Origin: Alphaproteobacteria bacterium
GTDB lineage: Bacteria; Pseudomonadota; Alphaproteobacteria; UBA828
NCBI GenBank assembly: GCA_022826345.1
Contig: JAJDVB010000112.1
Span: forward strand, 1-52,741
Direction: 5' to 3'
DNA: 52,741 nucleotides
Below the pieces are notes generated by a model that did no database searches, was not told where the DNA came from, and saw nothing but the letters and a program-made list of their open reading frames with translations. The translations under genes were made by a program, and so were the position numbers. Positions within the stretch are counted from its first letter, which is position 1. Every line of letters begins with the position of its first letter. Shown here in pieces: positions 1,822-47,220 of the stretch.

Positions 1822-2150
1822 TGCGAGGGCTCCTGCTGGGGAAAGGCGGGAAACCTAAAGTCGAAAACGACTCAATGAGGAGCCGAGTCGTACGGCGTGT
1901 CTATGCCGAAATCAAGATTTCTAAATCACGATTTCGACGAGAAAGGCATAATTTGCATCAATAATGATATGTAAACCTGCTCAAACTGCATGCGAAATGA
2001 CAATGTGCGTCCCTCAGAAAAACTCGCGCGGGTTTTGGAACCTCGCACGGTCCTTCTGCGGGTTCGAACGCGAACTCTTGGTAACGTTCCGGACGTCTTC
2101 CCGCCACCCGATGGCGGACCTCAACGGGGCCTATTGCAAGCTCTGGGCTG
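1822..2150. other. Intergenic region, A+T-richer upstream half
   Basis: No convincing gene is seen. The short frames on both strands overlap one another and match nothing recognisable. The part next to the Cache-barrel gene (about 1860-1975) is A+T-rich and should hold its promoter. It contains the near-perfect dyad GAAATCAAGATTTC at 1908-1921 and a further GATTTCG at 1930-1936, which could form an operator. No clear -35/-10 pair was assigned. Confidence 0.4.
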
Positions 2151-2729: not shown

Positions 2730-2893
2730 TGCCTCTCGGCCTGTTTGGCTACGTTGGTCCTCATCGTGCGACTGCAATGGTAGCTGCGGCTATGGGCCCC
2801 GACCACGGGGATCGGTACGGCGCGCGCCGTTGTCGGCGATGGTTGGCCGGCCTAGGATCGACCGCCCTATCCCACCAACCGAACGAGGCCCCC

Positions 2894-4459: not shown

Positions 4460-4505
4460 CGCGCCCGGCGCCCGGCCCACGCTCAGGCGGCCGCGAGGTG
4501 CGGCG

Positions 4506-6068: not shown

Positions 6069-6087
6069 CGCCGGAACGGAGAAGTCC

Positions 6088-7775: not shown

Positions 7776-8013
7776 GGTTGCAGCCTCCCTGGCGGCGTTG
7801 CGCGGTTCGATGCGGACGGTAAGGCGGTGCGGCCCTTGCCGTCAACGTGTGCCGTTCGGGGGTTGAAACGTCTCATAAGAAATTCGCATTGAACCGTTCG
7901 AAATACGCAGAATCGGATGGGGAGGCGGCGCGGAAGCCGCTATGATGGGTCATCTAAACGAAGCGGGAGAACCCGCCGAAGCGCCCGTCCCACAGAAAAT
8001 AAGTTGGTCCATC

Positions 8014-8562
8014 ATGTCAGACATCGGTTCGCCGCCCAGCGAAGGCGGCTCAATCACGGCCCAGGTCAAGTGGTTCAACCCGACCAAGGGATTCGGCTTC
8101 CTCGTGCCCGACGACGGCTCGCCCGACGTCTTTTGCCATGTGTCCGCAGTCGAGCGGGCGGGATTCGAGACGCTGCCCCAAGGGGCCACCGTCACCTGCG
8201 AAATCGTACAGGGGCAAAAGGGCCCCCAGGTTTCGCAAATCCTCAATGTCGACACCTCAACCGCGACCGTCATGCCCCCGCGGGGCGACCGACCGCGCCG
8301 CCCCGGCCCCGGAGGCTTCCAGGCCCGACGCTACAACGAGCCCATGGGCCCGACCGAGGAGATCGAGGGCACGGTCAAGTTCTACAACGTCGGCAAGAGC
8401 TACGGCTTCGTGACGCCGGACAGCGGCGGGCAGGACGTGTTCATCCATGCCAAGGTCCTTGCCCGCTCCGGCCTCGACGATCTGGAGCCTCAGCAGCGCG
8501 TGCGGCTGGAGATCACGCAAGGCCCGCGTGGGCCGCAGGCGACCAGCATCGAGCTGATCTGA
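8014..8562 (+). CDS. Two-domain cold shock protein
   Basis: This encodes two cold-shock (OB-fold) domains joined by a proline/arginine/glycine-rich linker. Domain 1, about residues 13-79, has VKWFNPTKGFGFL (RNP1) and VFCHVS (RNP2). Domain 2, about residues 117-182, has VKFYNVGKSYGFV and VFIHAK. Such proteins bind single-stranded RNA or DNA and melt secondary structure. The frame is open from ATG ATG at 7942, with GGAAG close before it. The codons from 7942 to 8013 include CTA, ATA, AGT and GGA, which are rare in this genome, so the stretch may be the leader that cold-shock genes usually carry. I prefer ATG 8014, but 7942 is possible. Tandem-CSD proteins are common in alphaproteobacteria. Confidence 0.85.
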   Translation: MSDIGSPPSEGGSITAQVKWFNPTKGFGFLVPDDGSPDVFCHVSAVERAGFETLPQGATVTCEIVQGQKGPQVSQILNVDTSTATVMPPRGDRPRRPGPGGFQARRYNEPMGPTEEIEGTVKFYNVGKSYGFVTPDSGGQDVFIHAKVLARSGLDDLEPQQRVRLEITQGPRGPQATSIELI

Positions 8563-8576
8563 AGCCGTTCGCCATC

Positions 8577-8606
8577 GGCGCGCGGCCCGCCTCGGCAGGC
8601 CGCGCC
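8577..8606 (+). terminator. G+C-rich hairpin after the cold shock gene
   Basis: The arms CGCGGCC (8581-8587) and GGCCGCG (8598-8604) can pair with a 10-base loop, starting 18 bases after the stop. No T-run follows, so this is a possible attenuating hairpin rather than a clear intrinsic terminator. Confidence 0.3.
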
Positions 8607-8650
8607 GTCGGACGTTACAGGGGGCTCTGCCCCGCCACAGGCCGGCCGCG

Positions 8651-10462
8651 ATGATACGGAATCCGGTCGCCACGCCCATCCTTGCGCGCCGTTTCGATGC
8701 CATCGTGCGCGAGATGTCGAACGCGCTGCTGCGCTCGGCTCGCTCCAGCGTCATCGCCGCCGCCAAGGATTTCTCCTGCGCCCTCCTTACCCATGACGAT
8801 CGGCTGATCGCTGCTGCCGAAGGCCTGCCGGTGCACGTGCTCGGGTGCCACCTGCAGACCCGTTCGATGCGCACCCTTCATCCGGACCTGCGGGAAGGCG
8901 ATGCCTTCCTCCACAACGATCCGTACCTCGGCAACACCCACGCGGCCGATCACGCGATCCTGGTGCCGGTGTTCATCGACGGGGTGCACACGTTCACCGC
9001 CTGCGCCAAGGCGCATCAGGCCGATATCGGCAATAGCGCCCCCACCACCTATCACGCCTTCGCGCGCGACGTGTACGAGGAGGGTGCGCTCATCTTCCCC
9101 TGCGTCCTCGTGGAGCGCGGGGGCGCGATCAACGACGATATCGTCCGCATGTGCGAACGGCGCATCCGGGTGCCGGCACAGTGGCGCGGCGACTTTCTCG
9201 CGCTGATCGGCGCCGCGCGGATTGGCGAGCGGCGCCTCAAGGAGTTGTGCGGGACGCTTGGCGCCGAGGTTGTTGCGGCCTCCGTCGAAGACTGGCTGGA
9301 CTACTCCGAGCAGCGCATGGCGCGGGCGATCGCGGGGCTGCCGGGTGCGTCGCTGGTCTCGGAAAGCGCGCACGATCCGGTGGACCCTATCTTGCCCGAC
9401 GGCATTTCGGTCAGGGTCGGAATCGAGGTGGACCCAAGCGCAGCCAGGATCACGGTCGATCTGCGTGACAACATCGATTGTGTCGATTGCGGCCTGAACC
9501 AGACGGAGGCCTGCTGTCTCGCGCACGTCTTCACGGCGATCTTCAACTGCCTCGACGACGACGTGCCGCGCAACGAGGGCGCGTTTCGCCGCGTCGAGGT
9601 GCTGATGCGAGACGGCTGTGCGATCGGGCGCCCGGCCTTCCCCCATAGTTGCTCGGTTTCGACCACGAACGTGGCCGAGCGCCTCATCTATGCCATTCAC
9701 AGCGGCTTCGCGCGTCTCGGCGAGGGGAGGGGTCTCGCCGAAGGCTCGGCAAGCATGGGCGGGGCGATGGCCGTGATCTCCGGCACCGATGCCCGCCGGG
9801 GCGGTGCCCCCTTCGTCAATCAACTGTTCCTCGGGGTCGGCGGCGGCCCTGCCGCCCCCGGCGCCGACGGGTGGCTGACCTATTGCCTGCCGACGGCGGC
9901 GGGCCTCGTTCACCTGGATAGCGTCGAGTTGGTGGAGAGCCGCTACCCGATCGCCGTGGATTCGGCGCGCATCGTCGCCGGCAGCGGCGGTGCGGGGCGC
10001 CGGCGTGGTGCGCCGGCAACGGAGGTCGTCTATGGCCCGACGCACGGCTCCCTTACCGCCGTCATTCCGTCGGACGGTCACCATGTCGCACCGCGCGGTG
10101 TGTGCGGAGGTGCCGACGCGACGGCGGGCCGCACCGCCAAGCTCGACCGCGACGGCCGGGAAACCGTGCTTCCCAATTTCGTGCAGCTCACTCTCGAGCC
10201 CGGCGAGCGGCTGCGGGCGACGGAAGGAGGCGGAGCCGGCTATGGCGATCCGTTGACGCGGGATGTAGAGCGCGTGCTGCACGACGTGGCCGAGGGTTGG
10301 GAAACGCGCGACAGCGCGCTGAACGCCTATGGCGTCGTTCTTTTGGAGCCGGGCGGTGGCCCGCTTGCTGTCGACGAGGCGGCGACCGAGGCCCGGCGGC
10401 GGGCGCTCACTCGGCGCGGACGCTGCGCCGGCGAGACAGAACCGATCCGATCACCATCATGA
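8651..10462 (+). CDS. hyuB: Hydantoinase B / oxoprolinase family protein
   Basis: A 603-residue member of the HyuB family, the B component of ATP-dependent N-methylhydantoinase and 5-oxoprolinase-type enzymes. Diagnostic stretches are the FLHNDPYLGNTHAADHAILVP metal-binding region, FACAKAHQADIG-like sequence (here TACAKAHQADIG), DLRDNIDCVDCGLNQTEA, and the glycine-rich GGGAGYGDPLTRD near the C-terminus. HyuB normally works with HyuA, the actin-like ATP-binding subunit. No hyuA lies next to it here: upstream is the cold shock gene and downstream is a convergent transporter. It could pair with a HyuA elsewhere or be a remnant of a split operon. The last 56 bases overlap the 3' end of the convergent DMT gene. 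Confidence 0.88.
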   Translation: MIRNPVATPILARRFDAIVREMSNALLRSARSSVIAAAKDFSCALLTHDDRLIAAAEGLPVHVLGCHLQTRSMRTLHPDLREGDAFLHNDPYLGNTHAADHAILVPVFIDGVHTFTACAKAHQADIGNSAPTTYHAFARDVYEEGALIFPCVLVERGGAINDDIVRMCERRIRVPAQWRGDFLALIGAARIGERRLKELCGTLGAEVVAASVEDWLDYSEQRMARAIAGLPGASLVSESAHDPVDPILPDGISVRVGIEVDPSAARITVDLRDNIDCVDCGLNQTEACCLAHVFTAIFNCLDDDVPRNEGAFRRVEVLMRDGCAIGRPAFPHSCSVSTTNVAERLIYAIHSGFARLGEGRGLAEGSASMGGAMAVISGTDARRGGAPFVNQLFLGVGGGPAAPGADGWLTYCLPTAAGLVHLDSVELVESRYPIAVDSARIVAGSGGAGRRRGAPATEVVYGPTHGSLTAVIPSDGHHVAPRGVCGGADATAGRTAKLDRDGRETVLPNFVQLTLEPGERLRATEGGGAGYGDPLTRDVERVLHDVAEGWETRDSALNAYGVVLLEPGGGPLAVDEAATEARRRALTRRGRCAGETEPIRSPS

Positions 10463-11309
10463 CGAAAGCGGCGAGCATCAGCGCTGCCGCTCCCCACACG
10501 TAGGCCGAATGGGTCTCGTCGAAGAAGAGAATGCCCCATCCGATGCCGCCGACCACGCCGATGATGTTCATGACGGAGAAGAGCGAGGCGCCGGCACGGC
10601 GCACGATCACGTAGAACATCGGCCACATGATGGCGTTGATGACGACTGCGGCGACGAGCGAGAGGTCGCCGTCCAGGTCCGGCCCGGGGAAAAGGTAGAG
10701 CTGCCCGGTCGCCGGCAAGAAGGGGACGAGAAGCAGCGCACCCGCAAAGAGGTTGCCGATTGCAAGGCCGAGCGACGAGGACTCGGGCGGACGGAAGCGC
10801 TCGACGAACACGTTGAGCGCGCCGAACCCGAAGGGAATCAGCAGCGCGATGACGAACCAGACCGCCATGCTGGGCGCAGGCAGGCTTTCCCCCGGAATGA
10901 CGATCAAGAGGACACCTGCGATGGCTGTCACCAGGCCCGCCGCGCTGATCAGGCGAAAGCGGTCGAGCCGGAAAACAACCGCGAGCGCATAGGTGAAGAC
11001 CGGGGTCAGCGTGAGCAGCAACACGGTGACGCCGGAGGGCAGCTTGGTCACGACAAAGGCGAGCAGCGCGAAGGGAAAGGCGAAGCCCAGGGCGGCGCTC
11101 ACGAAATAGAGCCTGATATGGGGCCAGGTGAGTTGCGGCAGCTCGCGCCGGGCGATTGCCGGTCCCAGAAGAACCAACCCGGCGCCGAGGGCATACCAGA
11201 ACACGTAAGCGAAATTGGGGAAGCCGGCATCGCCCGCGATCTTGTTGACCGGGATCAGCAAGCTGAAGTTGATGCCGGCGATGAGGATGAGGACGAGCGA
11301 GAGCGCCAT
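10407..11309 (-). CDS. DMT-superfamily (EamA) transporter
   Basis: A 300-residue integral membrane protein with about ten hydrophobic helices in two five-helix halves, as expected for two EamA domains. The drug/metabolite transporter superfamily exports amino acids, metabolites or drugs; the substrate here is unknown. ATG 11309 lies 8 bases after the lpxB stop, so it is the last cistron of the rseP-lpxB operon. The reading frame continues upstream without a natural start in better context. A proline and charge pattern (NKIAGDAGFPNFAYVFWYALGAG) follows helix 1, and the C-terminus ends with a basic RRRSVRAE tail. Its 3' end overlaps the hyuB 3' end by 56 bases on the opposite strand. Confidence 0.85.
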   Translation of the reverse strand: MALSLVLILIAGINFSLLIPVNKIAGDAGFPNFAYVFWYALGAGLVLLGPAIARRELPQLTWPHIRLYFVSAALGFAFPFALLAFVVTKLPSGVTVLLLTLTPVFTYALAVVFRLDRFRLISAAGLVTAIAGVLLIVIPGESLPAPSMAVWFVIALLIPFGFGALNVFVERFRPPESSSLGLAIGNLFAGALLLVPFLPATGQLYLFPGPDLDGDLSLVAAVVINAIMWPMFYVIVRRAGASLFSVMNIIGVVGGIGWGILFFDETHSAYVWGAAALMLAAFVMMVIGSVLSRRRSVRAE

Positions 11310-11317
11310 GACGGACG

Positions 11318-12508
11318 TCAGGTTGCGGTGCGGCTCTGCCGGCGCTCCGCGCCGGCTTCGATCAGGCTCAGGACGACCTCGGCGGCGCGCTCGCTCGGTG
11401 GCGGTCCGCCGCGCCCGAGCCGGGCAGCGATCTCGCGAAAGCTCTCGATCTGGTCGTGCCGGCGTCCGGCGTCGTGCAGCAGCTTCTCGACCGCGGGAAC
11501 CAGACGCCGCGGGGAGCATTGGCGCTGCACGAACTCCGGCGCCGCCCGGCGGTTCGCGATGATGTTGGGCATCGCGATGTGATCCACCAGGAGGATGCGC
11601 CGTGCGATCGCCGCGGTGAGCGGGTTCGCCCGGTAGCAGACGATCATAGGAACGGCCGCGAGCGCGAGCTCCAGCGTCGCCATGCCGGAGACCGTGAGCG
11701 CCGCGTCGCTCGCGGCGAAGGCGGCGTATTTCTCGGCCTTGCCCTCCACCACGGTCACGGGTGCGGCCCATGACGCGGTCTTGGCGGTTACGACTGCGCG
11801 GTTCTGCGGCAGCGTCGGCACCAGGACGCGGAGCCCCTCGATGCGGCGCGCCAGTTGGCGCACGGTCTCGCCGAATACCGGCTCGTGCCGGCGCAGCTCG
11901 CTGGCGCGGCTGCCCGGCAGGACGGCGAGCACCGGTTGGTCGGGCGTGAAGCCGAGGCGTGCACGGAGGTCCGGCCCGTCGGCCTCGGCAATCGGCTCCT
12001 CCAATAGGGGATGGCCGACGAAACTGGCATCCAGGTCCACGGCCTCGAAATAGGGCGGCTCAAACGGAAACAGACAGAGCACGTGGTCGAGATAACGCGC
12101 GATCTCGGCCGCGCGCCCCGGCCGATAGGCCCAAACGGTCGGCGCCACGTAGTGAACCAGGGGAAAACCTGCGCCCTTCAGCCTGCGCGCGACCCGGAGC
12201 GCAAAGCCCGGCACGTCGACCGAGACGAAGGCCGCTGGCCGCGACCGGCGAGCTGTGCGCGCCGTGGCCCGAATGCGCCCGAGCATCCGTGGCACGTGGG
12301 GGACGACCTCGAACAGCCCCATCAACGACAGCTCGGTGTAAGGAAACAGGCTTTCCAGCCCCTGCTCGGCCATGAGGGGGCCGCCGATGCCGGCGAACCG
12401 GACTCGATCGCCGGTGCGCCGCTTGAGCGCCTCCATCAGGCGGGAAGCGATAAGGTCGCCGGACGGCTCGCCCGCGATCAGAAAGATCAGCGGCGCGGCG
12501 CGCTCCAT
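11318..12508 (-). CDS. lpxB: Lipid-A-disaccharide synthase
   Basis: A 396-residue GT-B glycosyltransferase (GT19) that joins UDP-2,3-diacylglucosamine and lipid X to give the lipid A disaccharide at the inner membrane. Family hallmarks are the N-terminal FLIAGEPSGDL, FAGIGGPLMAEQGLESLFP, SVDVPGFALRVARRLK, HYVAPTVWAYRPGRA and FVGHPLLEE, plus LAVLPGSRASE in the C-terminal domain. Its length matches the family. It lies 8 bases downstream of the lpxI stop and is followed directly by the DMT gene, in the conserved alphaproteobacterial lpx order. Confidence 0.97.
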   Translation of the reverse strand: MERAAPLIFLIAGEPSGDLIASRLMEALKRRTGDRVRFAGIGGPLMAEQGLESLFPYTELSLMGLFEVVPHVPRMLGRIRATARTARRSRPAAFVSVDVPGFALRVARRLKGAGFPLVHYVAPTVWAYRPGRAAEIARYLDHVLCLFPFEPPYFEAVDLDASFVGHPLLEEPIAEADGPDLRARLGFTPDQPVLAVLPGSRASELRRHEPVFGETVRQLARRIEGLRVLVPTLPQNRAVVTAKTASWAAPVTVVEGKAEKYAAFAASDAALTVSGMATLELALAAVPMIVCYRANPLTAAIARRILLVDHIAMPNIIANRRAAPEFVQRQCSPRRLVPAVEKLLHDAGRRHDQIESFREIAARLGRGGPPPSERAAEVVLSLIEAGAERRQSRTAT

Positions 12509-12516
12509 TCCGCCCG

Positions 12517-13335
12517 TCAGCTCACGCCGACCATGAACACGCCACGCTCGTCGGCGCGCGCGACCGCCCGATCGCGCTCCAGGATCAGCGTCTCGCCGGC
12601 CTCGACCGCCACCCCCCGGAAGCCGGCTTCGGCGAGCCTCTCGATCGTGTCCGCCCCAATCGTCGGCAGATCGGCCCGGCGCTCCTGACCGGGCTTCTTC
12701 ATCTTGACCAGCACGGCACCTGGCCCGGCCTCCTGCAGCGCGGCGCAGCGTTCGATCAACCCGTCCGTCCCTTCGACGCCTTCGACGCCGAGGACGCGGC
12801 CCGCCTGTACGACCACGGCCTGCCCGATGTCCTGCGCACCCAGCGCGCGCGCAGCCTCGACACCGACGGCGATGTCGCGTTCGGCATCTTCGTCGGGAGC
12901 GCGCCGGCCGATCACGCCGGCGGGCGCGCAGAGCGTCGCAATCAGGTCGTCGGCGCCGACGACGGTGAAGCCTTCGTCTTCAAGCTCGGTAATCACGAGG
13001 GAGAGGAGCGCGTCGTCGCCCTTGGTCTTTGCGCGCGCGATGCGCCCCATGAGGCGCATGCCGCGCAGGTCGACCTTGAGAGAGGAGAGGGAGGGCCGGC
13101 GGATCGAGCCGGCAAGCACGACCTCGCGGCAACTCGCTTGCCTCAGCGCCTTCAACAGGGCGCCGACCGCGCCGAGCCCGAGCCAGCGGTGGGGAACGCC
13201 CGCGCAGGTCTCCGGGTCCGTCTCGCCCTCGAACGCGATGACCAGGACCTCGCGGCCTTCGCCCTTGCATGCCCGCGCAATCAGGCCTGGCAGCGGCCCG
13301 CCGCCGGCAATAATTCCTAGGCTACTCGCCGCCAT
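12517..13335 (-). CDS. lpxI: UDP-2,3-diacylglucosamine diphosphatase LpxI
   Basis: A 272-residue LpxI, the alphaproteobacterial enzyme that hydrolyses UDP-2,3-diacylglucosamine to lipid X in place of the metallo-enzyme LpxH found in gammaproteobacteria. The start has the GIIAGGGPLPGLIA motif, followed by VVLAGSIRRPSLSSLKVDLRG, a GDDALLS segment and ADLPTIGADTIERLAEAGFRG near the end. The start overlaps the lpxA 3' end by 14 bases, and the stop lies 8 bases before lpxB. The gene therefore sits exactly between the steps before and after it in the pathway. Confidence 0.96.
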   Translation of the reverse strand: MAASSLGIIAGGGPLPGLIARACKGEGREVLVIAFEGETDPETCAGVPHRWLGLGAVGALLKALRQASCREVVLAGSIRRPSLSSLKVDLRGMRLMGRIARAKTKGDDALLSLVITELEDEGFTVVGADDLIATLCAPAGVIGRRAPDEDAERDIAVGVEAARALGAQDIGQAVVVQAGRVLGVEGVEGTDGLIERCAALQEAGPGAVLVKMKKPGQERRADLPTIGADTIERLAEAGFRGVAVEAGETLILERDRAVARADERGVFMVGVS

Positions 13336-14122
13336 CGTCCCTGGGTTGGCAAATCGAACGTTCGCGATCGACCCGCATGAAGTCGACGATATCCATGACC
13401 GGCTCGTTGTCCTGGAACAGCTCGGTGACGTCCGCGAGACGCTCGGTCATGGTCCCTTCCTGCGCGAAGAGCAGCCGGAAGGCCCGCCTGAGATCGTGGA
13501 CGATGTCGCGGCTGAAGCCCCGGCGCTTGAGCCCGACGAGATTGAGACCGGTCAGGCGCGCGCGATCGCCCATGGCCGAGCCATAGGGAATGATGTCGTG
13601 CTCGACCCCGGACATGCCGCCGACGATCGCATGGCGCCCAATGCGGACGAACTGATGAATGCCGGCAAGGCCACCGATAATGGCCCAGTCGTCGACCGTC
13701 ACGTGGCCGCCCAGCGTCGCGTTGTTGGCCATGACGACATGGTCGCCGACGATGCAGTCGTGGGCGACGTGGGTCGCGATCATGAACAGGCAGTTGTTGC
13801 CGACGCGGGTGAGCATGCGGCCGTGGGGCGTCCCCGGGCTCATGGTCACGTGCTCGCGGATGACGTTGTCCGCGCCGATCTCGAGCCGCGACGGCTCGCC
13901 TCGGTACTTGGTGTCCTGGGGCGGATGGCCGATCGAGGCAAAGGGATAAATGCTGGTGCGCGCTCCGATCGTCGTGCGCCCGGTAACGATGGCGTGCGAG
14001 ACCAAGCGGACGTCGTCACCGAGGACCGCATCGGCCCCGACGATGCAATAGGGGCCGATGCTGACGCCGTCGCCGAGCTGGGCGCCTGGCTCGACGATCG
14101 CGGTCGAGTGAATGTCCGTCAC
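13322..14122 (-). CDS. lpxA: Acyl-ACP:UDP-N-acetylglucosamine O-acyltransferase
   Basis: A 266-residue left-handed beta-helix acyltransferase that performs the first lipid A step, transfer of an R-3-hydroxyacyl chain from ACP to UDP-GlcNAc. Hexapeptide repeats run from about residue 5 to 190. The THVAHDCIVGDHVVMANN region holds the conserved histidine cluster, followed by GIHQFVRIG and the C-terminal signature LTGLNLVGLKRRGF that begins the helical tail. The C-terminal helical region matches the family and the length is usual. It starts 1 base after the fabZ stop. Confidence 0.97.
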   Translation of the reverse strand: MTDIHSTAIVEPGAQLGDGVSIGPYCIVGADAVLGDDVRLVSHAIVTGRTTIGARTSIYPFASIGHPPQDTKYRGEPSRLEIGADNVIREHVTMSPGTPHGRMLTRVGNNCLFMIATHVAHDCIVGDHVVMANNATLGGHVTVDDWAIIGGLAGIHQFVRIGRHAIVGGMSGVEHDIIPYGSAMGDRARLTGLNLVGLKRRGFSRDIVHDLRRAFRLLFAQEGTMTERLADVTELFQDNEPVMDIVDFMRVDRERSICQPRDDGGE

Positions 14123-14123
14123 G

Positions 14124-14594
14124 TCAGGTGTCTTCCAAGATCATCGCCGAGTACGTCGCTTCTGCCACCGCCTGGCCTTCCACCTCCGCCCTGGCCTCGA
14201 ACTTCCAGACGTTCCGGCGGCGGTGCTTCTTGGTGACATGGATAAAGAGCTGATCGCCCGGCACCACGGGCCGGCGGAAGCGGCAATGTTCGACCGACAT
14301 GAAATAGACGAGCTTGCCGGCCATCGCGGGGCCGAGGGTGGCCACCACGAGCACGGCCGCGCTCTGCGCCATCGATTCGATGACCAGCACACCCGGCATG
14401 ACCGGCATACGTGCAAAGTGTCCTTGGAAGTACGATTCGTTGATCGACACGTTCTTGATGCCGACGGCGCTCACGTCGGGGACAACGTCGATCATGCGAT
14501 CGATCATGAGGAACGGGTAGCGATGGGGGATCGCATGGAGGATCTCCTCGATGTCCATGCGTTCCACTGTTGGCATTGGTGCCGTTTCGTTCAT
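14124..14594 (-). CDS. fabZ: 3-hydroxyacyl-[ACP] dehydratase FabZ
   Basis: A hot-dog-fold dehydratase of type II fatty acid synthesis that competes with LpxA/LpxD for 3-hydroxyacyl-ACP. Visible motifs are the [10 protein letters not shown] signature, the catalytic region [22 protein letters not shown] with its histidine, and a conserved FR(R)PVVPGDQL segment. I take ATG 14594, giving 156 residues, because it overlaps the lpxD stop as ATGA, the junction style used elsewhere in this operon. The frame is open back to 14651 inside lpxD, but that extension has no family similarity. Confidence 0.96.
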
Positions 14595-15619
14595 TCCGGG
14601 GTCGCCTTGCCTGTTGCCAGCCGCGCCAGATGCGCGCTCTGACGGTGCCATTGCCGGATCGGCACGGCAGGCGTGCCGCCGTAGGTCCCGCCCGGCTCGA
14701 TATCGCGAGTGACGCCCGTCTGGCCCGCGAGCCGGACGTCGTCGCCGACCGTGCGGTGATCCGCTACGCCGACCTGACCCGCAATCTGAACGAATTCGCC
14801 AACCCTGGCGCTGCCGGCGAGCGCGCTTTGGGCCGCAATCACGCTACCCCGCCCGACGCGGACGTTGTGGGCGATCTGCACCAGATTGTCGATCCGGCAT
14901 CCTTGGGCGATCACCGTGTCGGGGCCGGATCCGCGGTCGATGGTGGTGTTGGCACCGATCTCCACGTCATCTTCGATCAGGACGCGGCCGAGCTGCGGTA
15001 TCTTCACGTGGCCGCCCCGATCGATCGCGAAGCCGAATCCCTCCTGGCCGATGCGGACGCCGGGGAAGATCGCCACCCGAGCGCCGATCAGACAGTGGGA
15101 GAGAGAGGAACCGGCCCCGATCCTCGTGTCATCACCGATCTCGACAGAGGGACCTATGGTGACGTTGGCTCCGACCAGACATCGAGCGCCGATACGCGCA
15201 TCCGCGTCGATGACGGCACCCGCCTCAACCCGGCATCCGGTGCCGAGAACTGCCGTCGAGTCGATCACCGCCGCAGGGTGCACCCCCGGCTCCGGCGCTG
15301 GAACCGGATGAAACAACTGGGCAGCCTGCGCGAAGGACTTGTAGGGATTGTCGCTGGTCAGAACCGCCACGTCCTCAGGTGCGCGATCAGCCAGCGTAGC
15401 CGGTGCAATGCAGGCGCCAGCCCGGCAGGTGGCGAACGCGTCGACATATTTTGAATTGACGAGGAAGCTCAGGTGCTGCGATGTGGCGTGGCTGAGGGGT
15501 GCCACGTCGGCAAGCCGCCTCGCTGGGTCAGCCCCCGCCGCGAGCTCTGCCCCTGCGGCCTCGGCGATTTCGGCCAGCGTGAACGGTCCCGCTACGGCGT
15601 AAAAGCGTGGATCGGGCAT
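14591..15619 (-). CDS. lpxD: UDP-3-O-(3-hydroxyacyl)glucosamine N-acyltransferase
   Basis: A 342-residue LpxD, the third lipid A enzyme, which adds the N-linked hydroxyacyl chain. The N-terminal uridine-binding domain (to about residue 100) contains [17 protein letters not shown]. The left-handed beta-helix follows with many [LIV]-G-x(4) hexapeptides, including [20 protein letters not shown]. The histidine-rich [16 protein letters not shown] and [12 protein letters not shown] regions contain the expected catalytic histidine. The C-terminal helix is short ([14 protein letters not shown]). The start codon overlaps the upstream skp stop as TAATG. Confidence 0.97.
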
Positions 15620-16179
15620 TAGTTCTCGTCGAACGTGAGCACGATCTCGGGATACGCCTCGTTCAACCGTTCAATCACCATGTCGGTCAGGTTGAACTCG
15701 GAGACAGCGAATATCGACTCATGAACCGGCAGCACGAGTTCAATTCCTTGGTCGGTCGCGACCTCTTCCACGACGATGCCGAGGATTTCGCGAAAGCGAA
15801 TTTCGCCTTCAGTCACGGCGCGCTGCAGGATCTGGCCGTGCGCTTGCGCCCTCTGGTCCGCAGTTGCGACTTCGGCGTTGAAGGCACGCTGGCGTTCCTC
15901 CAACACCGCGGGTGCGAGCAATGTCGACTGTTGCTCGAGCTCGTCGCGGGCGGCGCGCAGTCGCTCCGCCTCTCGTTGCGCCTCTGCGGCATAGCTCTTG
16001 CGCTGCGCCTCGCCCTGGTTCCGGATCGAGTGAATAGCCGACGCTTCGCCGAGAATCCGCGCCATCTCGATGACGGCCACACGCGTCCCGTGCTCATCCG
16101 CCCAAGCGTTTGTGTTGCCACCCACCACGCAGGTGATGGCCAGCGCGAAGACGATCCAGATTCGGCTCAATCCCTGCAT
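15619..16179 (-). CDS. skp: OmpH/Skp-like periplasmic chaperone
   Basis: A 186-residue OmpH/Skp family protein that escorts unfolded outer-membrane proteins to the BAM complex. Residues 1-27 are a signal peptide ([15 protein letters not shown]...AWA). The mature part starts with a beta segment ([12 protein letters not shown]) and continues as a long charged, glutamine/arginine/glutamate-rich coiled coil from about residue 45 to 135. This matches the tentacle fold of Skp trimers. A hydrophobic strand near the end ([12 protein letters not shown]) closes the core. It lies 2 bases after bamA, matching the conserved bamA-skp-lpxD order. Confidence 0.9.
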
Positions 16180-16181
16180 CT

Positions 16182-18497
16182 CTAGAACCTCGTTCCGAAA
16201 CTGAAGCGGAAGTTCTCGGTCACATCGAAGTCCTCTTTAATCAGGGCACGCGAGAAGTCCAGCCGGATCGGACCAATCGGCGAACGGAATCTGAGCCCCA
16301 CACCGACCGAGACCCGCGGCGAAGCCTCGTCCAGAAGTTCCGAGCCCGAGGCGTCGATCTCGGTGAGGCTGCCGATATCAGTGAAGGTCGCGCCGCGCAG
16401 GTCGAGCTCTTCGCCTACGCCCAGCGGAAAGCTCAGCTCGCCTGTCAACGAATAGAACAGATTGCCGCCGAGAGCATCGCCGGTTTCCGCATCGCGCGGT
16501 CCCACGCCGCTCGGCTCGAAGCCACGGAGACTGCTGCCGCCGAGGAAGAATCGGTCGACGATTCCCACGTCGTCGTCAAGGCCGACAATATAGCCACTAC
16601 GAAGCAGCCCGCTCAGAATCCATCCATCGGCAATCGAAAAGTAGTGGCCGTAGCGAAGGGTGTGCTTGATGTACCGGTTATCGCCGCCGAGCCCGGCGAG
16701 CTCCTGCCCGAAGCGGACCACATACCCTTCGGTCGGGTCGATGACGCTATCGCGCAGATCGTAAGTCAGCCGGTGCGAGATGGCCGAGGTCGTCGTCTCG
16801 CCTTCCTGCTCGCGAATGAATCGTGACGCGGTCGGCGAGATATCGCTGACGTCATCATTCTTGAACGTGTAGGAGACAGAGTGCCGCAGCCGCTCGGACA
16901 ATGGATAGCCGACGCGCAACGAGAGGCCGATGGTCTCGCGATCGAACGAGCTCTCATCCTGCAGGTCGATTGTCCTGTTGAACACGTCGAATCCCGCCGC
17001 GACATCGCGTTCCATGAAGTATGGCTCGGTGAAGCTCAGATCGATCTCTTGCCGGCGGGCCGAGGCCGTGAGCCCGAGCCTGAGGTCCTGTCCCCGGCCG
17101 AGCAGATTGCGCTCCCGGATGGCAATGTCGCCGAGAAGGCCCTCCGCCGACGAGACGCCGGCGCCGAAGCTGAGCTCGCCCGTGGGGACTTCACTGACCT
17201 CCACCGTGAGGACCGAACGGTCCGGCGCCGAATCCTCGCTGGTGCTGATGTCGACCTTGTCGAAGAAGCCGAGGTTCATGATGCGCTGTCGCGAGCGGCG
17301 GATCAGGGCCGAGCTGAAGGCATCGCCCTCCACCAGTCGGAACTCGCGGCGGATCACCTCGTCGAGGGTGCGGACGTTGCCCACGATGTCGATTCGCTCG
17401 ACATAGACCCGCGGGCCCTCGTCGATCTCGAAGGTGACGTCGACGGTTGTCGCCTCGCGGTCTCGGTCGACGCGGGGCTGGACGTCGACGAACGCGTAAC
17501 CGCGGCTGCCGACGACTTCGGTGAGCGCGACCAGCGTCTCCTCGACTTGCTCGGCGTCATACCAGTCTCCAACTTCGATCTCGATGACGGGGAGCAGCTC
17601 CTCCGGCGCCAGATCCCGCAGCTGGCTTTCGATATCGATGGCGGCTACTCGATAGCGATCTCCTTCCTCCAGCGAGAAAGTGACGATGAAATCGCTGCGG
17701 TCGGGCGTGAGCTCGGCGACCGCCGAGACGACGCGAAAGTCGACGTAGCCGTTGGCGAGATAAAACCGGCGGAGCAGTTCGCGGTCGAAGGTCAGCCGGT
17801 CGGGATCGTAGTTATCGGCGGTCGTGGCGAAGCGATACCACGCGCTTTCTCGGGTCTGGATGACGTCTCTGAGAGCGCTGTCGCTGAAGTGGGCGTTTCC
17901 GATGAAGTTGATCCGCCGGATACCCGTAACCGGGCCTTCATTCACTTCGAAGACGAGGTCGACCCGGTTTTGCGGGAGCTGGATGACTTTGGGCTCGATG
18001 GTGGCGGCGAAGCGGCCGCTGCGCCGGTAGATGTCGGTCAACCGCTGCAGGTCCGACTGCACCCGCGGCCGCGTGTAGACCACACGCGGCTGGAGCTGAA
18101 TCTCCGCTTCCAGGTTGCCGTCCTCGATCGCGTCGTTACCTTCGAAGATCACGCGATTGATGATGGGATTCTCGACCACGCTGACGACGAGGGCGTTTCC
18201 CTCCCGCCGGATGGCAACGTCGGCGAACAGGCCGCTCGCGAACAGGCTCTTGAGAGACTCGTTGACCGCGTCAGCATCGAATTCATCGCCGGGGCCGACA
18301 GCCATGTAAGACCGAACGGTGTCCGCTTCGATGCGCTCATTGCCCTCGACGAGCACGGATTCGATCGTCCGTTCCTGCGCCGCGGCAGCACCCATCCAAA
18401 GGCCGAGGATGACCGCCGCCAGCCAAACGACGTGCCGCATCCGGCTCCTTGCACCTGCCGCCGTCGCTCCGCGCATTTGCCGTGCTCGCTGGGTCAT
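16182..18497 (-). CDS. bamA: Outer membrane protein assembly factor BamA
   Basis: A 771-residue BamA (Omp85), the central insertase for outer-membrane beta-barrel proteins. A signal peptide ends near AAAAQ (about residue 40). Five POTRA domains follow: TIESVLVEGNERIEADTVRSYM begins the first and VERIDIVGNVRTLDEVIRREF begins the last. The C-terminal 16-strand barrel includes the conserved FFLGGSSLRGFEPSGVGPRD loop 6 region (VRGF-type, here LRGF) and ends in FRFSFGTRF with a terminal aromatic residue. ATG 18497 is chosen because it overlaps the rseP stop as ATGA; internal ATGs at 18476 and 18440 are alternatives. The open frame extends to 18872 inside rseP but is not protein-like. Confidence 0.96.
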   Translation of the reverse strand: MTQRARQMRGATAAGARSRMRHVVWLAAVILGLWMGAAAAQERTIESVLVEGNERIEADTVRSYMAVGPGDEFDADAVNESLKSLFASGLFADVAIRREGNALVVSVVENPIINRVIFEGNDAIEDGNLEAEIQLQPRVVYTRPRVQSDLQRLTDIYRRSGRFAATIEPKVIQLPQNRVDLVFEVNEGPVTGIRRINFIGNAHFSDSALRDVIQTRESAWYRFATTADNYDPDRLTFDRELLRRFYLANGYVDFRVVSAVAELTPDRSDFIVTFSLEEGDRYRVAAIDIESQLRDLAPEELLPVIEIEVGDWYDAEQVEETLVALTEVVGSRGYAFVDVQPRVDRDREATTVDVTFEIDEGPRVYVERIDIVGNVRTLDEVIRREFRLVEGDAFSSALIRRSRQRIMNLGFFDKVDISTSEDSAPDRSVLTVEVSEVPTGELSFGAGVSSAEGLLGDIAIRERNLLGRGQDLRLGLTASARRQEIDLSFTEPYFMERDVAAGFDVFNRTIDLQDESSFDRETIGLSLRVGYPLSERLRHSVSYTFKNDDVSDISPTASRFIREQEGETTTSAISHRLTYDLRDSVIDPTEGYVVRFGQELAGLGGDNRYIKHTLRYGHYFSIADGWILSGLLRSGYIVGLDDDVGIVDRFFLGGSSLRGFEPSGVGPRDAETGDALGGNLFYSLTGELSFPLGVGEELDLRGATFTDIGSLTEIDASGSELLDEASPRVSVGVGLRFRSPIGPIRLDFSRALIKEDFDVTENFRFSFGTRF

Positions 18498-19840
18498 GAG
18501 GTCAGGCCGATGATGTCCTTCGTCGTCACCCATACCATCAATGCGATAACGAGCGTTAGCCCGACCGTCGTGCCGATCTGCTGAATCCGGGCATTCAGCG
18601 GGCGCCGGAACAGAGCTTCCAGGCCGTTGTATAGCAGGTGTCCGCCGTCGAGCGGCGGGATCGGAAACAGATTGATCAAGCCGAGGGCGATGGAAATCAG
18701 TGCCGCGAATTCGATGAAGCCCGAGACGCCCCGCTCGAGCACGCTCCGCGACATGACCGCGATGCCGACGGGGCCGCTCAATTGCTCGGTGGAGCGGGTG
18801 CCTGCGATCATCTGGCCGATCGCGCGGAGATTGGCGGCGGCTAGGGCATACGTGTGCTCGACGCCGGCCCAAATCGACTCACCGACTCCAAGATCGCGGA
18901 ACGCCGTCTGCTCCTCGGGGTAAACACCGATCCGGCCGGTCCCGTTCATGTCGTCGGGCGTGACCGTCAGTGTCTCCTCGCGCCCGCTTCGTTCAACGAC
19001 GAAGGTGAGCGGTACGCCCGCGTTCCGCTCCACGATGGTGCGAAGGTGGTCGAAGCTCTCGATCGCCACATCGCCGATACGGACGATGTTATCGCCCGCC
19101 TGGAGGCCGCCCCGCTCGGCCGGGCTGCCCGCCACCACCTGCGAGACAGATGCTGGTGTGAACGGCCGGACCCCGATATCGCCCAGCTGCTGCGGCCGGT
19201 CGAAGGCGTCCAGCACCTCGATGATCTCCGGCTTCACCGTGAATTCGAGCAACTCACCGCCTCGTTCGACCGCGAGCGTGAGCGGCTCGCCCAAGCTTTG
19301 GAGGAGGGTAAAGTTCAGCTCCTCGAAGCGCTCGACGCGGCTGCCGTTGAGCTCGACCAGTCTGTCGCCCGGCTCGAGTCCGGCGACGGCGGCGGGGCTG
19401 CCCGCCCGCACGGTGCCGATTTCTACCGGCGTGTAGCGCTGGCCGACGACGATGAAGAAGACGGCGAAGATCGCTGCCGCCAGCAGGAGGTTCGCGAACG
19501 GACCCGCGAAGGCGATGGCCGAGCGCTTCCCCACCGACTTGGCGAAGAATGAATCGGACGGGGGCGGCCCGTCGTCGTCTTTGGCCGACGTGCTGGTGGC
19601 GTCGGCGTCGCCGTGGAACTTCACATAGCCGCCGAGCGGCAGCGCACACAGCTTCCAGCGTGTCCCGTGGCGGTCGTCGATGCCGACGAGCTCCGGCCCG
19701 AAGCCGACCGCGAACACCTCCACGCGCACGCCGTTGATCCTGGCCACGAGGTAGTGGCCAAGCTCGTGGAAGAACACCACGGGCGTGATCACCGCGAGAA
19801 ACGGCCAAATATAGTTTAGTTTGTCGACAAGCAGGTCCAT
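18494..19840 (-). CDS. rseP: RIP metalloprotease RseP (site-2 protease family)
   Basis: An intramembrane zinc protease that cleaves transmembrane anti-sigma factors and signal-peptide remnants. The HELGH motif (His25-Glu26...His29) lies in the first membrane helix. Two PDZ domains occupy the periplasmic loop (EIGTVRAGSPAAVAGLEPGD and VSQVVAGSPAERGGLQAGD). The C-terminal LINLFPIPPLDGGHL supplies the NPDG-like third zinc ligand (here PPLDGG). ATG 19840 gives 448 residues and puts the metal motif at the usual place; the frame is open to 19891. It is the first gene of the long minus-strand operon. The uppS-cdsA-dxr genes that usually precede it in proteobacteria are absent. Confidence 0.96.
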   Translation of the reverse strand: MDLLVDKLNYIWPFLAVITPVVFFHELGHYLVARINGVRVEVFAVGFGPELVGIDDRHGTRWKLCALPLGGYVKFHGDADATSTSAKDDDGPPPSDSFFAKSVGKRSAIAFAGPFANLLLAAAIFAVFFIVVGQRYTPVEIGTVRAGSPAAVAGLEPGDRLVELNGSRVERFEELNFTLLQSLGEPLTLAVERGGELLEFTVKPEIIEVLDAFDRPQQLGDIGVRPFTPASVSQVVAGSPAERGGLQAGDNIVRIGDVAIESFDHLRTIVERNAGVPLTFVVERSGREETLTVTPDDMNGTGRIGVYPEEQTAFRDLGVGESIWAGVEHTYALAAANLRAIGQMIAGTRSTEQLSGPVGIAVMSRSVLERGVSGFIEFAALISIALGLINLFPIPPLDGGHLLYNGLEALFRRPLNARIQQIGTTVGLTLVIALMVWVTTKDIIGLTS

Positions 19841-35315: not shown

Positions 35316-35507
35316 GCTGCCGCCCGGAATCGGCTCCGGCGGTGGCAATCAGGGTGCTTCTGTTGGCGGCCGTTGCATGACCACAGGGAATACCGCTTCC
35401 CCGCCTGACACATAATGCCGTACACCGACACGCCAACTTCGTCTCTTGACAGCCGAATGTTGACCGGTTATTTGCTAGAGATAACGGATATTCGTCAAAA
35501 TCGTCCA

Positions 35508-36698
35508 ATGATCCACCGATTTCAGGTCAGCAATTTCCAATGTCTTCGAGACCCGGTTCAGCTTGACTTCCGGATCCGAGGCACTACGCCGGACCTGCCC
35601 TGCTTTCAGCCTAGCTTCGCGGTACCCGAAGTTCGATTGCCGAGCGTGGTCACGCTTATTGGCCCAAATGGTTCCGGCAAAACCACATTGTTGCGCGCAA
35701 TTTCATATTTAGTGTGGTTCGTAACGCGGACCGACGAACAGGAGATGTTCTTTCCGTTCTTGTCTGAGGACGCTTGGACAGAGCCAACTATATTCGAAGC
35801 AGAATTCGACATTCAGTGGCCTTTCTCAACGAGCATCCAAGACCACGTCCTTTGCAGGTATAGGTTGGAGGTAGAACGCGACGGCATTGGCTCCACGACG
35901 TCGGTTGGCTATGAGGCGCTTCATATCTTCCCTAACGGTCGGCCAAGACGAATCATGGAGAGACGCAAAGAACAGCCAACCCGCGTTGCCAACGAATTTG
36001 GGTTGCGGCCCGGTGACGAACGACTCCGCTCAATACCTCCGAAAGTTTCAGCTATCGCAGCGCTTGCATGGATGGGAGTGAGCGCTTTTTCGCAATTCGT
36101 CGAAGACCTGAGCAACACAATGACAAACATCGCCGGTGCCGATCCTTGGAAGCCTGATACAGAGACAGTAACCCGGTTCTATCAAAACAATCCGGATGCC
36201 GTAGACGCTGTTTCAGAGAGGCTGGGGCGTTTTGACGTCGGCATTGAAGGCATGGACCTCGTAAAAATGTCAGATGGAAGACAATTGCTCATGTTCAAGC
36301 ATCGAGGTTTGCAATTGCCCATTCAGCTCATCGCAGAATCATCCGGAACTCGTCATTTGGTGCATTTATTTCCTGATCTGTCTTCCGCGCTAAAAACTGG
36401 ACACCCGGCAATCATGGATGCACTTGATTCTGGCTTCCATACTGATCTCGCGATGGAACTTCTCGATCAGTTTCGACGTACCGAAAGCAATCCGCATCGA
36501 AGCCAGTTGATTTGTTCACTTCACAACCTTTCCGTTCTGGACGACTTGGAGAAAGAAGAGGTCTTCATCGTTGAGAAGGCAAGGGACGGCGCGACGCGAG
36601 CCTACGGAGCACGGGATATCGCCGGGCTTCGGCGCGGTGTTAATCTCCAAAAGCTTTATCGTAGTGGCGCGCTGGGCGGATTGCCCTCCTTCGGCTGA
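35508..36698 (+). CDS. ABC/AAA-type ATPase, probable RloA/AriA-like defence component
   Basis: A 396-residue (from ATG 35508) OLD/RecF-type ATPase. The N-terminus IHRFQVSNFQCLRD is typical of AAA_15/AAA_21 proteins, and Walker A is GPNGSGKTT at residues 52-60. ESSGTRHLVHLFPDL (residues 277-291) matches the ABC-like signature helix. The Walker B region reads AIMDALDSGFH, where the family has D-E-[IL]-D-x-x-L-H: Asp304 is followed by Ala305 instead of the catalytic Glu. QLICSLHNLSVLDD provides the switch histidine. The end, KLYRSGALGGLPSF, resembles the G-x-x-G-x-x-P tail of RloB-partner ATPases. ATG 35415 is an alternative start. Codon use is visibly more A+T-rich than in the flanking genes, suggesting transfer. 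The next gene starts 3 bases later. Confidence 0.85.
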   Translation: MIHRFQVSNFQCLRDPVQLDFRIRGTTPDLPCFQPSFAVPEVRLPSVVTLIGPNGSGKTTLLRAISYLVWFVTRTDEQEMFFPFLSEDAWTEPTIFEAEFDIQWPFSTSIQDHVLCRYRLEVERDGIGSTTSVGYEALHIFPNGRPRRIMERRKEQPTRVANEFGLRPGDERLRSIPPKVSAIAALAWMGVSAFSQFVEDLSNTMTNIAGADPWKPDTETVTRFYQNNPDAVDAVSERLGRFDVGIEGMDLVKMSDGRQLLMFKHRGLQLPIQLIAESSGTRHLVHLFPDLSSALKTGHPAIMDALDSGFHTDLAMELLDQFRRTESNPHRSQLICSLHNLSVLDDLEKEEVFIVEKARDGATRAYGARDIAGLRRGVNLQKLYRSGALGGLPSFG

Positions 36699-36701
36699 AC
36701 T

Positions 36702-37244
36702 ATGCCGCGGCGCGGATCCATTCGGAAACGCGAACGCCTGTTCGTTGGGGCTGAGGGCGAGAGCGAACGATCTCTCACCACTTGGTTCCAACGCATTTGC
36801 AACAACGAAGGGCTCCATCTCCATCTTGACGCTCAGGTCTGCGGGGGTGGTGATAGCCGTGCGGTCGTGGAGTTCGCCGAAAGACGATACGGCCTCCGCA
36901 ACGAACGTCTAGGAAGGTACTCGGCGGGCTTAGTCCTGCTGGACAAGGATCGATTGGAACAGGACCGGAGGAGGGGTCGAAGCCCTATAAGTGAGGGAAG
37001 GCTTGCGCGTATCTGGCTACGCCCCAATCTCGAAGGACTGCTCCTTCGCCTGCATCTTGGTCACGAAAGTCGTTTTCCGGCGGCGGGGCGGGCTGAGGAG
37101 GAACTCAGGAAGCTTTGGCCGGACTACAAGAAACCCTGTCCAGCCGATAGTTTAGAGCAGAGGTTTGACTTGGTCGATGTGCGCCGAGCTGCACACTATG
37201 ATGCTGATCTGGCACTGCTGTTGGAACTTCTTAGATTGGCCTGA
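36702..37244 (+). CDS. RloB-like TOPRIM protein, probable defence effector
   Basis: A 180-residue protein of the RloB/AriB (TOPRIM-like) type. An N-terminal basic stretch leads into RLFVGAEGESERSLTTWFQ, where Glu18 or Glu20 would be the TOPRIM glutamate. SAGLVLLDKDRLEQD supplies the D-x-D pair (Asp81, Asp83). WLRPNLEGLLLRLHLGHE (residues 105-122) corresponds to the S-N-P-x-F-E-x-W-x-L-L-H type motif of RloB. TOPRIM domains cut nucleic acid in OLD, Gabija and PARIS systems. The 3-base gap to the ATPase gene and the shared codon bias show that the two form one operon. The family assignment rests on motif order only. Confidence 0.78.
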   Translation: MPRRGSIRKRERLFVGAEGESERSLTTWFQRICNNEGLHLHLDAQVCGGGDSRAVVEFAERRYGLRNERLGRYSAGLVLLDKDRLEQDRRRGRSPISEGRLARIWLRPNLEGLLLRLHLGHESRFPAAGRAEEELRKLWPDYKKPCPADSLEQRFDLVDVRRAAHYDADLALLLELLRLA

Positions 37245-45262: not shown

Positions 45263-45520
45263 GCTGAATGGCCGAGCCGTTCGCAAAGGCTGCGCCCTTC
45301 GACCCTAGCGTAAGCACAAGAGGACAAGGCACTGTTCGACCTAATGTAATTTCTTGAAATGCTTCATCGCCGTACACTGGACCGCCCATCGAGCCTCTTG
45401 GACACGCGCAAAAGAAAGGACTAAATCTGGGCGCCCCCTTACCTCGCCCATACTGTCAGGATCAAGGTCTGCGCCGAAGATTAGGTCTGAGGCCGGCTCA
45501 CAGATAAGGAGGTAGACTAA

Positions 45521-47146
45521 GTGGGATCACTTTACCTGAATAGACTGTCAAACGAAGAGCGGCAACTACTAGTCGAGACTCTTTTGAATACACAGAATGG
45601 GAACTGCTTTATCTGCGCAAAGGAAATCGATCTTACTGTTCATGCCGACCACATAGATATCGATCACGTTGAACCGACCAAAATTGGAGGAAAAGACGGA
45701 CCGAAAAATTTTGCTGTTACCCATTCTTCGTGCAATCGGGCAAAGCAAGCAAGCGATCTCCGTGTGGCGAGAATCCTCGCCTTGTTTGATGGAATCAGGG
45801 AGTCAATATCTGGCGAAAACCGCTCTCCTAATCTGGATGATATTCTCTCTCGATACGGGGGCGCGAGGTATGCTTTACCTTTTACTGTAGCTGGAGACTC
45901 CCTAAAGTTCTCATTTTCCGATCTTGGTCAGAACGAAATAATTTCAAATTCAATATACGAAGACGAAATTTCCGGCTTTCGCTCTACGTTTCTGAATCTT
46001 CCTATTGAATACCTACATCACGATAACCATATTAATCCGCGTGCTATCGGAAAAAACCTCAAAAAGCTTGTGGAGGAATTCCACCGAAAAAGACCGCAAC
46101 TCCATGTTGCATTAGGTTGGGTGAACACAGCTGAGGACTCGACAGGTAAAGTCCAAATCTTTGACGGACAGCACAAAGCAGCAGCACAAATCTTGTTGGG
46201 CGCTCGTCGTCTATTGGTGCGAGTGTTCATCGACCCAGACGCCGACACTCTGCTGACAGCCAATACTCACGCTGGCACAACGCTCAGACAGGTGGCGTTT
46301 GACAAGTCGGTGCAGCGCAGTCTTGGGAGTTCCTTGTTGGCCGATAGGATGGCTCGTTACAGACGTGATCTTGATAAAGCGGAAGATGATGAAAGCTTTT
46401 CCGAGCGCGATTTGGTAAACCACTTCAAGGGTGAAAGCAAAGAGATGAAGAGGTATATTCTCGACTGGGTTCGCAACAGCATCACCACACATTCAAACAA
46501 TAAGCTTCGCGATTACATTGACTATGGTGGGCGTGGCACTGAAATGCCGTTAAGCTACAGTACCATAGAAAAGACATTCTATTCGTTATTCGTGTACAAC
46601 GATCTGTTGTTGACTTCGTTTAACTATAAGTCTGAAGAAGGAACGAATCCTCGAGAGCTCGAAATAGAGCAAATCGTTCGATTGATGAATGTTATTGCGG
46701 AGAAAATATATGTCGGAAAATTTGACCATTCTCTCGGAACCCGGAGAATCGAAAGTAATGTTCAGAAAGGCAAGGATGTGCCGGAGGAGCATCTCTGCGC
46801 ATTTCGAATGGCCAAAGAGGAAATTATACATAACTGGCTTCGATACATAAAGCAGATTATTCAAAATTATTTCATTACTAATGGAACACCTATTGATGAG
46901 AAGAAGTTGTTCCAGTATCCGATCCCTGAACCGTGCTGGGGAAATATAGAAAATTTTATCAAAGCGCTGAAACAGCTTCCTCTGTGGGTGAACAAAGATC
47001 TGTCGTTATCAGTGTTTGGAGGAAAGCAAAATGCGGAGTACTGGCAGCATATATTTGAGAATGGACGTACACGAGATGGTTCGTCCGTTATGGAATCAGG
47101 CATTAATCTCATGGATATGATAACGCCGAGGGGGAGTGAAGCATAG
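45521..47146 (+). CDS. HNH nuclease with central DGQH (ParB/DndB-like) domain, probable defence protein
   Basis: A 541-residue protein read from GTG 45521, with a near-perfect AAGGAGGT 7 bases upstream. Residues about 22-85 form an HNH domain: Cys29-x-x-Cys32, DIDHVEP with Asp48-His49, Asn63, and THSSCNRAKQ with Cys71. Residues about 150-260 resemble a ParB/Srx-type domain with VQIFDGQHKAAAQILLG (DGQHK at 215-219), as in DGQHR/DndB and DUF262 proteins. The rest (about 270-541) is rich in charged and aromatic residues and matches no family I know. The codons are markedly A+T-rich, unlike the neighbours, which points to recent acquisition. The gene stands alone between coq7 and a convergent enoyl-CoA hydratase gene. 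Restriction of modified or phage DNA is a plausible role, not a demonstrated one. Confidence 0.85.
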   Translation: MGSLYLNRLSNEERQLLVETLLNTQNGNCFICAKEIDLTVHADHIDIDHVEPTKIGGKDGPKNFAVTHSSCNRAKQASDLRVARILALFDGIRESISGENRSPNLDDILSRYGGARYALPFTVAGDSLKFSFSDLGQNEIISNSIYEDEISGFRSTFLNLPIEYLHHDNHINPRAIGKNLKKLVEEFHRKRPQLHVALGWVNTAEDSTGKVQIFDGQHKAAAQILLGARRLLVRVFIDPDADTLLTANTHAGTTLRQVAFDKSVQRSLGSSLLADRMARYRRDLDKAEDDESFSERDLVNHFKGESKEMKRYILDWVRNSITTHSNNKLRDYIDYGGRGTEMPLSYSTIEKTFYSLFVYNDLLLTSFNYKSEEGTNPRELEIEQIVRLMNVIAEKIYVGKFDHSLGTRRIESNVQKGKDVPEEHLCAFRMAKEEIIHNWLRYIKQIIQNYFITNGTPIDEKKLFQYPIPEPCWGNIENFIKALKQLPLWVNKDLSLSVFGGKQNAEYWQHIFENGRTRDGSSVMESGINLMDMITPRGSEA

Positions 47147-47184: not shown

Positions 47185-47220
47185 AGCTCCCTAAAAAGAA
47201 CGGAGTGTCATTAGGGAGCT
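47185..47220. terminator. Perfect 10-bp inverted repeat between convergent genes
   Basis: AGCTCCCTAA at 47185-47194 and TTAGGGAGCT at 47211-47220 are exact inverted copies around a 16-base loop. It lies between the stop of the HNH gene (47146) and the stop of the convergent enoyl-CoA hydratase gene (47223). A bidirectional terminator is likely, although no strong T-run follows on either strand. It could also mark the edge of the inserted block. Confidence 0.5.

Follow-up and report, generated by a model that had tools for sequence, protein, structure and literature searches.

We analysed a single gene at positions 45521 to 47146 of a 52,741 nt stretch of alphaproteobacterial DNA (contig JAJDVB010000112.1; the whole stretch is called the window in the following). 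An earlier note had described this gene as a candidate undescribed defence system encoding an HNH nuclease with a DGQH-type domain. The gene and its predicted features are:

45506..45512, forward strand: Shine-Dalgarno sequence AAGGAGG, 8 nt ahead of the GTG, read from the sequence
45521..47146, forward strand: putative HNH-DGQHK nuclease gene, an open reading frame (ORF) of 541 codons (541 amino acids) with a GTG start, near full-length homologues and a third-position GC content of 0.46
45605..45748, forward strand: HNH domain, residues 29-76 (PF01844), with C29, C32, H68 and C71 as likely zinc ligands and D48-H49, N63 and N72 as likely active site
45950..46291, forward strand: ParB/sulfiredoxin (Srx)-fold domain, residues 144-257, from the AlphaFold model
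46163..46177, forward strand: DGQHK motif, residues 215-219, candidate nucleoside triphosphate (NTP) pocket, present in 250/250 members; role proposed from the DGQQR motif of SspE and GmrSD
46388..47143, forward strand: C-terminal helical domain, residues 290-541, candidate sensor (model me2e404c68399), with invariant E295, R378 and W489

A protein family search scored 7995 candidates, of which 2559 passed at E 1e-3. The best 120 of these, the window protein among them, align across 90% or more of their length with 61-100% identity. A second subfamily of approximately 485-545 residues was reached through genome searches and expanded to 342 proteins. Its members are 21-24% identical to the window protein, and 33 pairs drawn from 11 sequences of subfamily 1 and 3 of subfamily 2 gave 19-25% identity. 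Despite this low identity the centres of the two subfamilies match at 99.6% profile probability. An alignment of 250 members was assembled from the best 120 of the 2559, the best 120 of the 342 subfamily 2 proteins and 10 loci. The central motif D215-G216-Q217-H218-K219 (DGQHK), which the earlier note had already pointed out, was invariant in 250/250 of these, as were N63, D168, P173, R174, Q193, N248, A251, Q257, F260, E295, R378 and W489, among others. Since the best 120 matches are near full length and the motif is invariant throughout the alignment, the HNH-DGQHK architecture goes beyond chance. Where source names were present, the listed members are called HNH endonuclease or 'hypothetical protein', so that the centre and the C-terminus have been overlooked.

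In a profile search with the window protein, Pfam PF01844 (HNH) matched residues 29-76 above its curated cut-off (E 5.1e-7), in agreement with the N-terminal HNH domain claimed before. At E up to 1 the same model matched 57/57 members. The HNH histidine H49 is found in 249/250 aligned members and the asparagine N63 in 250/250; with an HNH fold and catalytic-type His and Asn, the window protein is predicted to be a member of the HNH nuclease superfamily. C29-x2-C32 and H68-x2-C71 are presumably the zinc ligands of the domain. The zinc cysteines are less strictly kept: in subfamily 2, C32 is replaced by aspartate in 120/123 members, and H68/C71 are swapped to C/H. The HNH domain precedes the DGQHK motif, such that the order of GmrSD is indeed reversed.

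The fold of the DGQHK segment had been set as the key check of the proposal. In the AlphaFold model residues 144-257 adopt a ParB/Srx fold, which places the centre of the window protein, as modelled, within this fold superfamily. For the large C-terminal part, said before to be unassigned, neither a Pfam nor an NCBIfam match was obtained. When its 252 residues were modelled separately, one helical domain resulted, with a predicted local distance difference test score (pLDDT) of 93.6 and a predicted template modelling score (pTM) of 0.91. It found no credible match among PDB structures, a missing match being no proof of a new fold.

The branch of the ParB-like superfamily to which the centre belongs was addressed by profile comparisons. 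When 8 central segments were searched against Pfam with E values up to 10, no model claimed the centre, the outcome being three weak rows with E 0.11-0.2. DUF6551 (PF20188), which appeared a single time at E 0.11, was dropped. Three query sets were compared with alignments of DndB (11/13 matches, two under the cut-off being left out), ParB (24/30 loci, leaving out six whose GERR-type motif was not readable) and GmrSD (all 120 listed homologues). DndB/DGQHR was matched with 52-69% probability and scores of 37.6-41.0 over 22-35 columns only. As a control, 40 column shuffles per query set reached maxima of 16.8, 18.0 and 24.0, and the reversed target a maximum of 19.2. With full-length alignments the probability for DndB dropped to 28-29%. 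The GmrSD alignment gave 2-14% and ParB 0.4-8% probability. TIGR03187 (DGQHR) matched residues 194-411 (218 residues) of the subfamily 2 member L041 with E 0.0011, scoring 18.8 bits where the cut-off is 58.85; of the four full-length proteins and two segments of the window protein scanned, L041 alone was matched, and the whole window protein likewise gave no match. A comparison of the subfamily 2 centre with the family's C-terminal part (30.0 over 12 columns) was set aside, as the two cuts overlap by a few residues. GmrSD, DndB and ParB were each rejected as the family of the window protein on profile and motif comparisons. Judged by its sequence, the centre appears to form its own branch of ParB/Srx with DndB/DGQHR as nearest named, weak, relative and with lysine in place of arginine in 250/250 members.

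The base composition of the gene differs strongly from its surroundings. Its GC content is 0.445 compared to 0.699 in approximately 5 kb on either side, and the third-position GC content of 0.46 contrasts with 0.91-0.94 in five clear neighbouring genes. This bears out the A+T-rich codons within a G+C-rich genome seen before, and suggests that the gene was very probably acquired horizontally. The ribosome site at the GTG is as strong as had been stated, and the absence of a partner gene was also borne out: the adjoining genes encode homologues of 5-demethoxyubiquinone hydroxylase (COQ7; E 1.7e-50) and, on the opposite strand, of enoyl-CoA hydratase (E 5.7e-50). Repeats of at least 12 nt are absent from the flanks of the gene. 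Only two sigma-70-like sites were found, both inside the gene and in a number not above that of shuffles. Approximately 40 nt past the stop codon (47185-47220) lies a perfect inverted repeat (arms of 10 nt, spacer of 16 nt), a possible terminator. Elsewhere in the window, an A+T-richer island of two forward-strand genes (35415-37244) ends 8.3 kb upstream of the HNH-DGQHK gene. Its first gene encodes an AAA ATPase that matches AbiLi (E 4.5e-55); the second encodes 180 amino acids that appear RloB-like by eye, with no PADLOC or NCBIfam match. The island is likely a second acquired defence locus.

The distribution of the family was determined by genome scans (A1 profile, E 1e-15), where each count includes the genome from which the search started. 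In the phylum of genome G002 (titled Chloroflexi) 4/400 genomes carry the family, three subfamily 1 and one subfamily 2; this set appears to contain an earlier one of 301. The phylum of G003 gave 2/296 carriers, one being G003, and that of G004 1/249, G004 alone. Two orders yielded 1/24 and 1/61 genomes, in each case the starting genome. Scans of IMG/VR provided two full-length copies of subfamily 1 (L005 and L006) and one of subfamily 2 (L056). Among six viral-contig scans two were without relatives, and two re-found known loci only, apart from one fragment on a second contig that covers residues 271-539 and is identical to L005. By tblastn at E 1e-5 no match was obtained in the plasmid collection with the window protein, L009 or the subfamily 2 member L041, nor in the phage collection with the window protein, L006 or L041. 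The family is thus spread over several bacterial phyla, with copies that are rare, patchy and mostly solitary.

We then considered the neighbourhoods of 13 loci: nine of subfamily 1 (the window, L001, L005, L006, L009, L042, L043, L044 and L045) and four of subfamily 2 (L046, L047, L055 and L056). The contigs of L009 and L055 span no more than 3-5 kb. Not counted were L052, L053 and L054 (re-found loci or fragment) as well as L002-L004, L007, L008, L010-L013, L040 and L041 (repeats), and L014-L039 were not used, being HNH-only matches. For L001, L042, L043, L044, L009, L055 and L056 the neighbours were judged mostly by eye from translations; two genes of L042, two of L043 and one of L056 were profile-scanned.

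Four of the 13 loci lie beside defence or toxin-antitoxin genes. In L006, an IMG/VR contig, a large defence cluster (77-18514) surrounds the family member; it holds DrmD-like, type IIG/DrmMI-like, DUF932 and DruE-like genes and a PDC-M41A candidate (TcmP-like by eye), and an Mrr_N protein is encoded immediately downstream of the family member. In L045 a PhdYefM-like (below cut-off)/ParE pair is located one gene upstream, and the gene directly downstream is AF2212-like. In L047 (7147-10443) a SIR2_2 gene (ThsA-like) lies 259 nt from the subfamily 2 member on the same strand, such that the two possibly form a two-gene system. In L046 an AAA_21 ATPase gene is found at a distance of approximately 1.3 kb. 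Two further loci lie among phage-type genes: L005, with a terminase large subunit gene at a distance of one gene from the family member, and L056, where long neighbouring genes resemble tail genes by eye. For L056 the phage-type reading rests on the collection and on inspection by eye, and the profile-scanned neighbour had no telling match. There the subfamily 2 gene (4253-5743) occupies the strand opposite to the flanking long genes, like an accessory 'moron' gene. In L043 (15701-19901), genes for Ku and DNA ligase D lie approximately 5-9 kb from the family member. The proposed link to defence islands therefore held in part: homologues do not sit only in housekeeping surroundings, while 7/13 loci, the window included, are without an adjacent defence or phage gene.

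The family probably provides a single-protein defence against invading DNA, a role that we infer by analogy. For the window gene we lean, by a small degree, towards a horizontally acquired stand-alone NTP-gated HNH effector against invading DNA, with SspE-like logic and reversed domain order. The ParB/Srx domain would bind, and probably hydrolyse, NTP at the DGQHK pocket. The C-terminal helical domain may sense the trigger, which could be some property of foreign or modified DNA or else a state of infection, and the NTP switch would then set the HNH domain at the N-terminus free for nicking or cutting of DNA. An SspE-like mechanism is proposed because a positively charged residue, K219, occupies the motif position in 250/250 members and is combined with an HNH site and a conserved C-terminal domain. 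A more far-reaching version is tentative, and we doubt it more than we believe it: the family would found a new class of immune effectors, single proteins that cut DNA under nucleotide control (HNH, an own ParB/Srx branch and a new helical sensor fold), in several phyla and viral contigs, whose C-terminal domain recognises a foreign-DNA feature read by no known type IV enzyme.

Several observations weigh against an NTP-gated defence effector. The seven loci near neither defence nor phage genes count here, and with no background rate for comparison the counts from 13 loci are a hint and no enrichment. A nearby AAA_21 gene or toxin-antitoxin pair is moreover a weak sign of defence. Across the loci no modification enzyme is a steady neighbour, so that the sparing of host DNA is unexplained; the missing partner fits either recognition of a foreign modification or a suicide response. 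In the full AlphaFold model the pTM is 0.57 and residues 250-261, the loop after the pocket, are poorly modelled (pLDDT under 50), such that its domain arrangement is unreliable. A whole-model Foldseek search of the PDB gave nothing at E 0.001 or better, the best value being 5.2e-3; the GmrSD and SspE structures were absent from the best 50 rows, which is no evidence against a shared fold. The PADLOC matches of the window protein end at residue 86, i.e. they cover the HNH part.

The alternative that survives best is a suicide nuclease acting in abortive infection. The ParB/Srx domain would sense a change of the NTP pool or a phage trigger, upon which the HNH domain destroys the DNA of the cell without any recognition of DNA modification. 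The lack of a modification partner, the toxin-antitoxin (L045), SIR2 (L047) and ATPase (L046) neighbours and the copies in viral contigs all agree with it; on the other hand no constant antitoxin partner accompanies the gene, and sequence cannot separate this alternative from an SspE-like effector. We consider it unlikely. Rather improbable is a free-standing, homing-like selfish HNH endonuclease that spreads by cutting empty sites and uses its ParB-like and C-terminal domains for DNA binding. Such an element would be solitary, scattered and A+T-rich relative to its host, as observed, and the positions of L005 one gene from a terminase gene and of L056 in a viral contig would suit it. By eye, however, no neighbour gene is common to several of the 13 loci, an argument against a single fixed homing site, the window copy is not flanked by repeats, and a pocket motif kept in 250/250 members exceeds what we take small homing HNH proteins to need. 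A housekeeping nuclease of DNA repair or recombination is the least probable of all: the metabolic genes around the window copy and the Ku and DNA ligase D genes in L043 would be compatible with it, but the rarity of the family (4/400, 2/296 and 1/249 genomes) and the strong compositional misfit of the window gene argue against it.

We return to the NTP-gated effector and compare it with known systems. The DndB/DGQHR domain (PF14072, TIGR03187) is the best profile match of the centre. To our knowledge DndB contains no HNH domain, and the window family differs from it by scoring below the curated cut-offs and by carrying K for the R of DGQHR; PF14072 matched neither the window protein nor 57 members nor the 8 central segments. 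ParB, PadC and sulfiredoxin share the fold in the model, and the P-R, the DGQHK and the next strand align with ParB over 74 columns, whereas the GERR motif is absent, no ParB DNA-binding domain was recognised and the profile probability is at most 8%. Septu was rejected, as the PtuB models match within residues 7-86 only and no ATPase gene is adjacent (ORFs judged by eye).

GmrSD and BrxU, both defence enzymes, likewise combine a ParB/Srx-fold domain bearing a DGQ-type motif with an HNH domain in one protein. They differ in having the HNH domain last and DGQQR instead of DGQHK. Their DUF262 (PF03235) was matched neither in the window protein (E up to 1) nor in 57 members or the 8 central segments (E up to 10), and DUF1524 (PF07510) neither in the window protein nor in the 57 members, the HNH domain here being an N-terminal PF01844. 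According to the passages available to us, the DGQQR motif of GmrSD falls on the sulfiredoxin signature in the alignment and makes up a putative NTP-binding site (PMC4619093), while the activity of BrxU is promoted by NTPs, and a step following NTP hydrolysis is hypothesised (PMC10952713). SspE, a phosphorothioate-sensing DUF262-HNH nickase, would share with the window protein the NTP-switch logic, in which a positively charged pocket residue gates the HNH domain (PMC13251355); it has another domain order and other family profiles, and no SspBCD-type partner was recognised beside the window protein. For SspE, NTP hydrolysis within the ParB/Srx-type domain switches the nuclease domain on (PMC10952713); hydrolysis, nicking and defence all depend on the arginine of the motif (PMC13251355).

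ParB-like domains recur in conflict systems, and so do HNH domains, as far as the excerpts of PMC5512222 and PMC12839542 go. A protein with ParB and HNH domains is loosely mentioned in an Abi2/HEPN context (PMC3710099), as is a mobile element with ParB and HNH domains (PMC5906684); either might or might not belong to the window family. In line with the claim that the protein is undescribed, we found no HNH-first ParB protein in the parts of the literature on GmrSD, SspE, BREX and Dnd available to us, nor in the DndB and nuclease passages of PMC10853773. By analogy the HNH-DGQHK protein may thus be an NTP-switch HNH nuclease which, by the profiles tested, is not a member of GmrSD, DndB or ParB. 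The NTP-switch HNH nucleases in the literature so far as seen are DUF262-first enzymes (GmrSD, BrxU, SspE). If the proposal is true, the reversed order, the other pocket motif and the C-terminal domain without match suggest that such a switch evolved, or was reassembled, on more than one occasion, here in a one-gene system convenient to transfer and test.
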